From the NCBI RefSeq assembly GCF_012848855.1, contig NZ_CP051630.1, forward strand, positions 124,001 to 188,000: a stretch of DNA of 64,000 bases, read 5' to 3'. Position 1 is the first letter of the stretch. Each line of letters starts with the position of its first letter. This DNA comes from Pyruvatibacter mobilis. GTDB lineage: Bacteria; Pseudomonadota; Alphaproteobacteria; CGMCC-115125. The notes under the pieces are model-generated. The model saw only the letters and a list, made by a program, of their open reading frames with translations, searched no databases and was not told where the DNA came from. This document shows, in pieces, positions 13,570 through 34,935 of this stretch. The position numbers and the translations under genes are program-made.

Positions 13570-14520
13570 ATGAGTCTTGACCCCCAGATCGAGGCGCTGC
13601 TGGCGCAGCTTGCCGAAAATCCGGCCCCTAAGATCCAGGACCTGTCTCCGGCCGATGCCCGGGCTACCTATCTGGCCATGGCGTCAGTGCTCGAGATGCC
13701 TGATGTGCCGATCGGCAAGACCGAAGACATCTCGATCCCGGGTCCCGCAGGTGACATTCCTGCGCGCATCTACCGGCCGGTGGCCGGCGGCGGTGCGGCC
13801 CTGCCGTGCCTTGTCTTCTTCCATGGGGGCGGTTTCGTCATTGGTGATCTCGACACGCACGACGTGTTGTGCCGCACATTGGCCAATGAAGCAGGTGTTT
13901 GTGTGGTCGCGGTGGATTACCGCCTTGCCCCTGAACACCGGTACCCCGCAGCTGCGGAAGACTGTTATGCCGCTACCAAATGGGTGGAGCAGAACCCCGA
14001 TACTCTCAATATCGACCCCAATGCTATTGCCGTGGCCGGTGACAGTGCCGGCGGCAATCTGGCCGCCGTCGTCAGCTTGATGGCACGCGACAACAAGGGG
14101 CCGCAGATTTCCTTCCAGCTTCTCATGTATCCGGTCACGGACATGACGGGTTCGGAGAAATGGGCATCGCGCAATGAATTTGCCGAGGGGTATTTCCTCG
14201 AGAAGGAAACCATGGCGTGGTTCGAGGCCAATTATTTCGGCGAGAATACTGCCGGCCGTTCGGAAGCCACGGGCTCTCCGCTGCTGGCACCGAACCTTGC
14301 CAACCTCCCCCCTGCCTATGTCGTCACGGCCGGTTTCGACCCGCTGCGTGATGAGGGCAAGGCTTTTGCCGATGCATTGAAGGCTGCCGGAAACGATGTC
14401 GAATACATCGATTATCCAGGCATGATCCATGGCTTCTTCAACATGCAGGGCGTGCTCGACGTTTCCCGTGAGGCCGTGAAGACCGCGGCCCGCAAGCTTC
14501 GGGATGCGCTGGCGGGCTGA
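13570..14520 (+). CDS. HSL-family esterase/lipase (alpha/beta hydrolase)
   Basis: 316 residues, hormone-sensitive-lipase family IV. All hallmarks are intact: oxyanion motif FFHGGGFVIGD (about 89-99), nucleophile GDSAGGNLAA, acid DPLRDEG and catalytic His in MIHGFF. It should hydrolyse short or medium acyl esters in the cytoplasm, as no signal peptide is visible. AGGAAA lies 8 bases before the ATG. A strong bidirectional terminator follows. It is a useful intact reference for the degraded relative fused to a HTH at 32613-34208. Confidence 0.92.
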   Translation: MSLDPQIEALLAQLAENPAPKIQDLSPADARATYLAMASVLEMPDVPIGKTEDISIPGPAGDIPARIYRPVAGGGAALPCLVFFHGGGFVIGDLDTHDVLCRTLANEAGVCVVAVDYRLAPEHRYPAAAEDCYAATKWVEQNPDTLNIDPNAIAVAGDSAGGNLAAVVSLMARDNKGPQISFQLLMYPVTDMTGSEKWASRNEFAEGYFLEKETMAWFEANYFGENTAGRSEATGSPLLAPNLANLPPAYVVTAGFDPLRDEGKAFADALKAAGNDVEYIDYPGMIHGFFNMQGVLDVSREAVKTAARKLRDALAG

Positions 14521-31549: not shown

Positions 31550-32431
31550 ATGGCGAAAGGCGCAGAAATCATGGGCAGAGTTTCCTTCCTTCCGATTGCC
31601 GGTAAGGCAATGGCCGGAGTATTCGTAGTGTTGGCTGTGTCGGCAGGTGCGCATCTTCACGTGGCGCACGCTGAAACGCCGTCTGCTGAGAAAACACCTC
31701 CGGCGGCGGATCAGTTCCTGAGGGAAACCAGCTCCGAGACCGCCGAGACATCTGTCTCGATCGATACGCGACTGCTTGAAGAACCCGTGCTGGGTGCACG
31801 TCTTGTGTCCGGCAGCGTCGAGGGCGCCAAGGCATTGGAAGCGAGTGCGGTGCAGGATGCCGCGGATGCACCGGAGTTTTTCCGAACCTATATGAGCAAT
31901 GAGGACTGGCGCGTCACCCATGAGACCAAGACCTATCTGAGTGCGCTGGGGACCCGCTGGCTCTTCACCGGCGGCGCTCATGGCAATAGCGGTTTCTCCA
32001 GTGTCATCTGGGAGAAACCGCAGGCAGGCAGGATGGGCCGTGAAGTGGACGTGGCGTCTTTCTTCCGGAATGGTGCCTCTGCTGACGCGGAGATCTGGCC
32101 GCTCCTGTCCACCTTTCTCTATGACGCCTGGGAGCGTGAATGGGAGGCCCGGACCGGCGAGTCCGTGACGGTCAGCGGACAAGGCTGGCACGTGGACGCG
32201 CAAAAAACACTCGCTCAACCTGCGCCCTCCGACATGGCATCGGTGGTCACGCTCGTCCCCTCCACCGAGTCCGGCAAGGCCGGTGGCCTCGCTTTTCACT
32301 TCGCGCCGTATGAGCTGGGCCCCTACGCCATGGGCACATTCTCCTTCACCGTGCCGCAGCAGGTGTTCCGGGCGCACCTAACGGTAGAGGCAACGGAGCT
32401 CTTTGGCGGTGACGCCTTGACCAATGACTAG
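31550..32431 (+). CDS. Exported DUF3298/DUF4163-domain protein
   Basis: 293 residues with a signal peptide (hydrophobic core about residues 16-38, cleavage near AHAE). The C-terminal half carries the DUF3298 hallmark, LAFHFAPYELGPYAMGTFSFTVP, found in RsiV-like and other envelope proteins. An in-frame ATG at 31571 is an equally possible start. It ends 7 bases from the 3' end of the convergent tRNA gene. Role unknown; in RsiV the domain binds lysozyme, but this protein lacks the anti-sigma part. Confidence 0.8.
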   Translation: MAKGAEIMGRVSFLPIAGKAMAGVFVVLAVSAGAHLHVAHAETPSAEKTPPAADQFLRETSSETAETSVSIDTRLLEEPVLGARLVSGSVEGAKALEASAVQDAADAPEFFRTYMSNEDWRVTHETKTYLSALGTRWLFTGGAHGNSGFSSVIWEKPQAGRMGREVDVASFFRNGASADAEIWPLLSTFLYDAWEREWEARTGESVTVSGQGWHVDAQKTLAQPAPSDMASVVTLVPSTESGKAGGLAFHFAPYELGPYAMGTFSFTVPQQVFRAHLTVEATELFGGDALTND

Positions 32432-32438
32432 ACGGGAA

Positions 32439-32515
<77 letters not shown>

Positions 32516-32612: not shown

Positions 32613-34208
32613 TCAGGGAAAGGCTGCCTGGGCTGCCGCCTGAAGGACCATGCGCACCACAGCCGCCTGGTCGCCCGCGCCGAGCTTGGCCTTGATGGCT
32701 GCAAACTGGGTGCGCACGGTGGTGATGGCGATGCCATTCGCTTCGGCATAGTCGGCGAGTGCTGTGCCTCCGGCAAAGGCTGCGGCAAGGGCTGCTTCCT
32801 TTACGGTCAGTCCGTGCCACGTGATGAGGGCATTCTCGTCAATCGAGATGTCTTCGGCGGAAGGCAGTATCCGTAGCAGCACGACAGGTGGCACACCGCG
32901 CCCTTCGCTCTCCCGGTTGAGGCGCTCACCGCGCATGAGGCGCGGCGTGTCGCTGCCGGGCATGGCGAGGCGGATGGCGCGATGATTGTTCGTAGGCTTC
33001 GGGCTGAACAGGTCGTCCAGCGCACCGGATAGCGCGGTTTCATTCTCCTCGCCGTTGGCGGCCAGACGGCCGTTCCGGAACAGGATTGGCGAAGTGGCTT
33101 CGGCCATGGCGCGGGCGCGGCGGTTTGCCATCAGAATGTGCCGGCTCGAACTTATCAGCAGCATGGCGTCGGAGGCTTCCGTGAAGAGCATGGTCAGCCA
33201 GTCGCGCTCCACCTGATCCTGCGTCACCAGGGCCCCGTGCTTCAGTCGGCGCTGGATGAATGGCCAGACCCATTCCGGGCCGTGGGCGCGTGACCATTCG
33301 AAGATCTCGTCCACCCGCTCCCGGGTGTGAGGCTGGACGAATTCCTTGATCAGTCCCTGGTAGTCCGTAATCAGCTTGTCCGCGGTTGCCCGTTCGACCT
33401 GGGCTTGTTTTCCGGTCTGGCGGCGGATGAACTGGCCGATGCGTGCGAGGCATGCCGTGCTTTGTTGCGACAGGGGGGCGAGGCGCTGCCAAGTATCCGC
33501 CAGCCCATCCCACTCATACAGATTTACCTTACTGCCGGCCCCGCGCAGTTTTTCGGCCAGCATCATCGCGTCGTCATAGAGAACGTCGTTGACGTCGGCA
33601 TGGATTTCCATTTCCGGCATGCCGGACAGGTCAGCAAGGACGGGTGACGCCAGCGGATGACGCGGATCAGCCCCCTGCAGGTAGTCGAACGCCAGCGTCA
33701 TGATCAGTTCCACATCCGATGTGGAGCCGTTTGAGCGAATGTTGCTGACATAGGACCCGCCGGAAAACGTAAGGTCGACCAGCGGTGTGAGCGCAACGAA
33801 GCCTGCAGGCATGGGCCGCCCCTGGTCCCGCAGGGAGAGAAGGGCTGCAAGGGCAATGCCGGCGCCTGAGGTGTCGCCCATGAAAACGATCTTTGCCGGA
33901 TCGTGACCCTGTTCCAGGAGTGCCACATAGGTAGCGGCGACGTCTTCCACCGCGAGGGGAAACGGCTGCTCAGGTGCCAGCGCGTAGTCGAACAGCAGCA
34001 CGCGGGCACGGGCGTGGGTGGCGATCCGACCGGAGATGATCTCCTGCATGGGGCCGCGATTGAGCGCGAAGGTGCCGCCATAGATGTAGAGGACAATGCG
34101 CGCATCGGAGCGCGTGTCGGGCTGTGCGATCCAGATACCGGTCACCGGCAGCCCTTCAGCCGGTGACGTGACCGCTCCCAGATTGTCCAGGCCCCCCGCC
34201 TGCGTCAT
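32613..34208 (-). CDS. HSL-like pseudo-hydrolase fused to LuxR-type helix-turn-helix
   Basis: 531 residues in three parts. Residues about 20-265 align with hormone-sensitive-lipase esterases (FDYALAPEQPFPLAVED, ASPVLADLSGMPEM), but the active site is changed. The oxyanion motif HGGG is YGGT (43-46), the nucleophile motif GDSAGG is GDTSGAG with Thr at 113, and the catalytic-His position is Asp 238 (GLADTW). Only the Asp region NDVLYDD (207-213) looks normal. Residues about 335-450 resemble a PAS-like sensory linker. Residues 467-525 are a LuxR-type HTH (LTVKEAALAAAFAGG, then ITTVRTQFAAIKAKLG). A very strong AGGAGGAAGG site precedes the ATG. I infer a one-component regulator that binds an ester-like ligand without hydrolysing it. 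Confidence 0.85.
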   Translation of the reverse strand: MTQAGGLDNLGAVTSPAEGLPVTGIWIAQPDTRSDARIVLYIYGGTFALNRGPMQEIISGRIATHARARVLLFDYALAPEQPFPLAVEDVAATYVALLEQGHDPAKIVFMGDTSGAGIALAALLSLRDQGRPMPAGFVALTPLVDLTFSGGSYVSNIRSNGSTSDVELIMTLAFDYLQGADPRHPLASPVLADLSGMPEMEIHADVNDVLYDDAMMLAEKLRGAGSKVNLYEWDGLADTWQRLAPLSQQSTACLARIGQFIRRQTGKQAQVERATADKLITDYQGLIKEFVQPHTRERVDEIFEWSRAHGPEWVWPFIQRRLKHGALVTQDQVERDWLTMLFTEASDAMLLISSSRHILMANRRARAMAEATSPILFRNGRLAANGEENETALSGALDDLFSPKPTNNHRAIRLAMPGSDTPRLMRGERLNRESEGRGVPPVVLLRILPSAEDISIDENALITWHGLTVKEAALAAAFAGGTALADYAEANGIAITTVRTQFAAIKAKLGAGDQAAVVRMVLQAAAQAAFP

Positions 34209-34326
34209 CAGACCTTCCTCCTAGGAATTTCCGAAAGTCCGCAGCGGAGTTTAGGGCAGAAATCATCCGTGTGCTCATCAATTGTGATGACCAGTGATAG
34301 CCCTCTGATCAGATCGCAGGCAAAGA

Positions 34327-34367
34327 AAAACCCGCGGGGCGTGCGCTGGGCACATCCCGCGGGTTTT
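34327..34367. terminator. Intrinsic terminator between PagL-like and fusion-regulator genes
   Basis: Twelve-pair stem, AAAACCCGCGGG with CCCGCGGGTTTT, 17-base loop. The A-run becomes a T-run on the minus strand, so it terminates the PagL-like transcript. Confidence 0.85.
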
Positions 34368-34410
34368 GTTTGGCGTTTCTGGCCCGGTGGGGTTGGGCCG
34401 TAATGGCGTC

Positions 34411-34935
34411 TTAGAAGGCCATCGAATAGTGGAGGCCGGCGGCGTTCACGCCCGGATTGTCTTCCGAAATGCCGGCATTGGACAGGTGCCAGAAATAGGC
34501 GGAGATCATGCTGCCGTCGTCGAACTGCCAGCCGAACTCGATCTGCTCGCGGAATTCGAAGACCTGGCCCAGATCCTTGGAATTGCCCTCGCCATAGGCA
34601 CCGAAGCCCACCTGCAGGCGGGTCAGGAAATTGTCGGTGAGGAAGATGGAGCGCGAAAAGCCGACATGACCGTAGACCGCGCCGTCCGTGTTGACGAAGG
34701 CGCCGACCAGCGGACGGATTTCCCAGATGATGTTGTAGTCAGGGATGTAGCCGATATCGAAAACAGCGGAGGCTTCCTCAGAGCTGTCACCGACATCGAA
34801 GAAGCCCGCGCCGACATAAAGATGAGCCGGCTGCGAGGCGGCCAGTTCTTCGGCCTGCGCGGAAGTGGTGGCGCCAGCCACGAACGAGAATGCTGCGGCA
34901 GCCGCGACGGCCAGCCCGGTAAGAAGATGTTTCAC
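34411..34935 (-). CDS. PagL-like lipid A 3-O-deacylase (acyloxyacyl hydrolase)
   Basis: 174 residues: signal peptide (about 1-28, cleavage after AQA) then an eight-strand outer-membrane barrel. The C-terminal HLSNAGISEDNPGVN holds the His-Ser pair used for catalysis in PagL, and the protein ends in an aromatic residue (SMAF), the outer-membrane targeting signal. PagL removes the 3-O-linked acyl chain of lipid A. The start is GTG with an AGGGGAA site. It is monocistronic, closed by a terminator, and divergent from the nuclease gene. Confidence 0.88.
   Translation of the reverse strand: MKHLLTGLAVAAAAAFSFVAGATTSAQAEELAASQPAHLYVGAGFFDVGDSSEEASAVFDIGYIPDYNIIWEIRPLVGAFVNTDGAVYGHVGFSRSIFLTDNFLTRLQVGFGAYGEGNSKDLGQVFEFREQIEFGWQFDDGSMISAYFWHLSNAGISEDNPGVNAAGLHYSMAF

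Follow-up and report, generated by a model that had tools for sequence, protein, structure and literature searches.

The step from enzyme to receptor is usually argued from the plant proteins GID1, D14 and KAI2. GID1 is an HSL-derived, non-catalytic protein that has lost the catalytic His, with the Ser and Asp kept and a lid present (PMC3531792). A bacterial connection between the HSL family and transcription is provided by Aes of E. coli, an acetyl esterase of this family that binds MalT, a STAND activator of the LuxR type with a GerE HTH (PMC10427625); here the esterase is a separate, active enzyme that acts in trans on a large STAND ATPase. Two further groups are relevant, namely the bacterial HSL family IV esterases, such as EstD11, E40 and EstE5, and the LuxR-type one-component regulators (autoinducer receptors and LuxR solos), which carry a GerE HTH at the C-terminus and a dyad close to the promoter. 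The literature that we searched yielded no fusion of an HSL domain to a LuxR-type HTH, the nearest precedents being Aes-MalT and GID1. LuxR402 of Novosphingobium, an envelope regulator, was also considered as a precedent and set aside as an ordinary LuxR of 291 aa.

The window studied here, i.e. the whole 64,000-nucleotide stretch that was analysed, comes from Pyruvatibacter mobilis, whose genome is a single contig of 3.33 Mb and which has a close relative named Candidatus Phaeomarinobacter. It encodes a protein with the following layout:

32613..34208, minus strand: regulator gene, 531 aa, comprising a degenerate HSL hydrolase, a helical linker, a PAS-like region and a LuxR-type HTH (open reading frame, Pfam, family alignment)
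33417..34103, minus strand: HSL alpha/beta-hydrolase domain, residues 36-264, the best-conserved domain of the family (Pfam Abhydrolase_3, model with pTM 0.75, Z about 22, dN/dS)
33189..33401, minus strand: helical linker, residues 270-340 (family alignment, comparison with split operons)
32844..33188, minus strand: fast-evolving PAS-like region, residues 341-455, missing from the small HTH proteins described below (dN/dS, profile comparison)
32634..32831, minus strand: LuxR/GerE-type HTH, residues 460-525, with recognition helix ITTVRTQFAAIKAKLG (GerE matches in the family, PDB profile matches)

The reading frame (32613-34208, minus strand) is intact and begins with an ATG that has AGGAGGAAGGTCTG ahead of it; since the open frame spans only 535 aa, no longer N-terminus is possible. 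Residues 39-236 match Abhydrolase_3 (PF07859) with E 5e-40, and NCBIfam assigns the N-terminal part to HSL subfamilies and 456-524 to a LuxR-type response regulator (E 7e-4). The GerE match in the window protein alone has E 0.14, below the Pfam cut-off; across the family GerE is matched in 23 of the 24 members (best E 2.7e-8), and a C-terminal family profile run against the PDB matches the HTHs of VraR (3e-6), FixJ and GerE. These matches bear out the initial annotation in describing an HSL-type hydrolase fused to a LuxR-type HTH. The "PAS-like linker" that it placed between the two is really two regions: the stretch 341-455 does give a marginal match to PAS_8 (E 0.04-0.2, sub-threshold in the window protein) and resembles the middle part of other alphaproteobacterial LuxR proteins, but the conserved helical linker at 270-340 is separate from it. 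No autoinducer-binding domain was among the Pfam families listed for the 24 members; in contrast to the LuxR-type autoinducer receptors, the candidate sensor here is an alpha/beta-hydrolase. Directly downstream of the regulator lies a tRNA-Arg(CCT) gene (32439-32515, minus strand), and beyond it a predicted secreted protein (31550-32431), which has a relative close to the regulator in sister genomes as well (L001, L069).

We consider it fairly probable that this protein acts as a one-component regulator both of its own gene and of cell-surface genes, uses a sensor derived from an esterase, and arose by operon fusion. The earlier proposal of a one-component transcription factor with a dead esterase sensor stands in outline, in view of the fixed catalytic loss, the purifying selection, the HTH and the predicted operator, while its targets have to be revised. 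Like Aes-MalT, the window protein ties an HSL-fold esterase to a LuxR-type HTH, but its hydrolase is covalently joined, has no catalytic residues and works with no ATPase. What is new is the family, its origin, its neighborhood and its predicted operator. If this reading is correct, bacteria would offer an example of a transcription factor that took over a hydrolase pocket as its sensor, one with unfused enzymatic relatives still alive and for which an operator and a small regulon are predicted. Simple bacterial genetics could then put the transition from enzyme to receptor to the test, and a candidate regulator of autotransporter-type and VWA surface proteins would be named.

The family comprises, beyond the window protein, 23 fetched relatives from three genera in two GTDB families of Alphaproteobacteria. 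Three species of the window genus carry the regulator at 77-78% identity; in the second GTDB family one genus has up to three neighboring paralogs per genome (64, 53 and 47% identity) and the other a single copy (53-54%). No further full-length members turned up among 385 Alphaproteobacteria genomes (three best candidates scored per genome), a scan of viral contigs gave no more family sequences, and a plasmid search returned no record covering 80% of the regulator protein. Three elements of the HSL active site are replaced in the window protein:

34071..34082, minus strand: YGGT in place of the oxyanion motif HGGG, residues 43-46 (family alignment)
33858..33878, minus strand: GDTSGAG in place of GDSAGG, residues 111-117, the nucleophile Ser being Thr113 (family and EstD11 alignments)
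33495..33497, minus strand: Asp238 at the position of the catalytic His (family and EstD11 alignments)

All 24 members have Thr in place of the nucleophile Ser, and D, E, S or T where the catalytic His would stand; 23 of them share YGGT as the oxyanion motif, and the remaining member has YVGT. Asp112, Thr113 and Gly115 are invariant. The family profile finds EstD11 (represented in the PDB by the inactive S144A mutant) at E 2e-66, gap-free across the nucleophile and His loops, and the same columns, again aligned without gaps, read GDSAGG and MxxH in intact esterases. A model of the hydrolase domain (pTM 0.75), built from 3 sequences and poor at 143-189 and 237-244, matches EstE5, E40 and EstD11 at Z about 22, with 31-36% identity in the structural alignments; a full-length model, also from 3 sequences, was unusable (pLDDT 48). 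The EstD11 columns agree with the replacements that had been read from the window alone. The match begins at residue 49 of EstD11, equivalent to residue 18 of the window protein, and this alignment together with the length of the open frame indicates that an N-terminal lid over the pocket is missing. The family shares fold and sequence with the family IV esterases, but differs in having HGGG, Ser and His replaced and an HTH fused.

Residual catalysis, in which Thr113 or Ser114 would serve as the nucleophile and Asp238 or some other residue as the base, would find some encouragement in the pairing of Thr with a neighboring Ser in the window genus, in the triad acid Asp208, which is kept in the window protein (Glu in one paralog group), and in the crystallization of an HSL esterase with a comparable His-to-Asp change (8yfy, EST1 H274D), for which we found no activity in the literature searched. 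However, Ala replaces Ser114 in the other two genera, the His position is variable as given above, the oxyanion His has become Tyr, and the loop offers no substitute His, all of which makes this explanation very improbable. The parallel with GID1 drawn in the initial annotation is apt as to an HSL fold that has lost its catalytic His, but it is a loose one: GID1 keeps the Ser, the Asp and its lid, whereas the window family has also lost the Ser and the oxyanion His, is without the N-terminal cap stretch, and has a fused HTH as its output. By analogy, Aes-MalT appears to be the closer precedent in mechanism. Likewise, the intact HSL esterase at 13570-14520, which had been suggested as a direct comparison, is real but makes a weak one, because it is only 27% identical and belongs to a distant HSL branch. 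The proper comparison for the dead hydrolase is a set of esterases encoded in split operons.

These esterases are the nearest unfused relatives of the hydrolase domain (35-43% identity) and keep HGGS/HSGS, (G/A)DSAGG and PH(G/V)W. Each is directly followed by a small HTH gene, overlapping or within about 15 bases, whose product comprises the HTH (458-521) without the PAS-like part; in one of two groups of these genes it also includes the linker (about 270-322), so that the linker stretch to about residue 322 is common to the fused protein and some of the split operons. A tree of 75 hydrolase domains places the 24 fused versions in one clade (100/100) and the 14 split versions in another; these two clades are sisters with joint support of 100/99. 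Given that the sister clade consists of an intact esterase with an adjoining HTH gene, the fused protein looks like, and in the best view is, a fused operon in which the esterase half has ceased to be catalytic. The split state would be the older: an active HSL esterase and the small HTH gene next to it in the operon probably fused, the PAS-like region being gained and the active site lost. A cap stretch at the N-terminus is present in the split esterases and missing from the fused protein. The split operons, with esterase and HTH as separate genes, are similar to Aes-MalT in arrangement. Near the split operon of one genome (G098) there is also a separate LuxR-type protein with an HTH and a weak PAS-like match (L122:12226-13347).

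The dead hydrolase is under strong purifying selection and is not decaying. Between the two closest species its dN is 0.012 and its dS 0.57; this pair gives a dN/dS of about 0.02, and comparisons with the window gene, in which dS approaches saturation, give about 0.06. All domains of the window gene have a low dN/dS. Compared with the sister species, the window protein is 88-90% identical over hydrolase plus linker (88-89% over the hydrolase), 53-57% over the PAS-like part and 71-73% over the HTH. The non-catalytic N-terminal HSL domain would act as the sensor: the presentation of the HTH would be altered either by a partner protein bound to the surface of the domain or by a small molecule in the former substrate pocket, for which the initial annotation had proposed a hydrophobic ester, lactone or acid. 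As Aes controls MalT by contact, the chief alternative to a small ligand is a protein partner. The hydrolase might then be a platform for protein interaction or dimerization and not a small-molecule receptor, with the signal coming from the partner or from the PAS-like region. Direct inhibition of MalT by Aes (PMC10427625), the location of much of the family conservation outside the catalytic motifs and the very presence of a PAS-like region would all fit such a platform. Nevertheless, we regard it as rather unlikely: conservation is lowest in the PAS-like part, and the former active-site residues are nearly invariant (YGGTF, DT), which suggests that the pocket has been kept rather than a surface only. 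The PAS-like region could also be the sensor instead of the hydrolase.

Returning to the reading as a regulator of cell-surface genes, all regulator and split-operon loci examined with their upstream flank are back to back with a gene for an envelope protein, the window species being the exception. The partner from which the full-length regulator diverges is an autotransporter-type gene both in the g10 genomes and in the three sister species, and the autotransporter domain PF03797 was confirmed in the Phaeomarinobacter and g10 partners scanned. In the third genus the divergent gene codes for an OmpA-like protein (PF00691) or for an unclassified secreted, beta-barrel-looking protein. The split operons are divergent from genes for outer-membrane-like proteins ending in ..RF or ..SF, with no Pfam match in those scanned; these partners (L108, L112-L119, L121, L122) comprise at least two sequence types. 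The gene order in the sister species is PagL-like, autotransporter, regulator; in the window a gap of 202 bp separates the PagL-like gene from the regulator. The features of this part of the window are:

34411..34935, minus strand: PagL-like gene (PF09411, E 1e-16)
34321..34372, minus strand: terminator-like hairpin with a T run, 3' of the PagL-like gene, between that gene and the operator (-30.2 kcal/mol, z -4.2)
34275..34290, no strand assigned: predicted operator TCATCA-N4-TGATGA, 16 bp, 82 bp upstream of the regulator ATG (recurrence of the dyad upstream of family genes)
34209..34410, no strand assigned: intergenic region, where the three sister species have the autotransporter-type gene, facing away from the regulator, and the window species does not (locus comparison)

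No autotransporter like that of the sisters is left at the window locus, and a profile search of the genome finds only more distant ones, the best of which (G000:C1 about 290,000) has no dyad upstream. Comparison of the loci thus indicates that the divergent autotransporter-type gene has been deleted in the window species. The PagL-like gene, which the initial annotation had named among possible targets, is unlikely to be one: it runs in the same direction as the regulator and ends upstream of it, and the hairpin separates it from the predicted operator, which sits between the hairpin and the regulator.

The operator prediction derives from a 16-bp dyad, TCA(N3)-N4-(N3)TGA. Of 36 genes for regulators or split esterases, 35 have this dyad upstream. 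Its distance from the assigned start is mostly 58 to 98 bp, and 9-12 bp in three split operons, in which the start was probably called too early. Counted strictly, a perfect TCA...TGA dyad occurs in 30 of 36, as against 0.05 in shuffles, a count that is inflated because the regions are related and not independent, the sharing of the dyad being partly due to common descent. The variants of the dyad follow the protein group, with TCACCA in the second paralog and TCATAC or mixed TCATCA/TCACCA in the split operons, and TCACCA half-sites are seen only where an Asn precedes TVR in the recognition helix. In one genome (G101) an extra autotransporter copy, apart from any regulator, carries its own dyad, which ties the dyad to the surface gene and not to autoregulation alone. 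A tandem duplicate of the autotransporter gene in one genome (L070:13688-17518) has a dyad upstream of each copy. From these patterns we infer DNA binding and, with it, regulation of one sign or the other. The LuxR-type HTH, probably as a dimer, would bind TCATCA-N4-TGATGA in its own promoter region, and in the relatives the same dyad, lying between the regulator and the divergent autotransporter-type or other envelope gene, would place both under control.

The genome of the window species has three exact dyad sites: at the regulator promoter, upstream of a gene for a secreted VWA protein, and inside a predicted coding frame (G000, 3019266), the last of which was treated as a chance occurrence. 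Unrelated genomes have 0-2 chance sites each, so that single sites prove nothing and recurrence is what counts. The VWA dyad is seen in three Phaeomarinobacter species: it recurs in two sister species, where it is 101 bp upstream of a conserved Met, the distance being 150-153 bp in the window species. It lies further upstream (101-153 bp) than the dyads of most divergons. The best-supported predicted targets are the promoter of the regulator itself, the gene for the secreted VWA protein and the divergent autotransporter-type gene, which the window species has lost. In the window species, the operator at its own promoter and the VWA target would be what remains after loss of the divergent surface gene, and this may be why the regulator is kept. 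The same loss might be taken to mean that the regulator is now a decaying relic in this species, the more so as its PAS-like and HTH parts differ from those of the sisters more than the sisters differ among themselves. With the frame intact, dN/dS low in every domain and the dyad kept both at the regulator promoter and upstream of the VWA gene, we find this extremely improbable.

For the family as a whole, the autoregulated surface-gene regulator could be part of a broader scheme, which we offer as possible but doubtful. The operons of active esterase and HTH (the enzyme perhaps acting on the signal that is reported) and the fused, dead version that only binds the signal would all control surface proteins via one operator code that changes with the recognition helix, the signal being an ester or lipid, possibly from algal hosts. 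The window genus has been reported as associated with brown algae (PMC4110880). As for the VWA gene (L126:3585-5021, i.e. G000:C1 about 773,084-774,520), it is conserved in two sister species, and 3' of it a large predicted secreted protein without a Pfam match is encoded.
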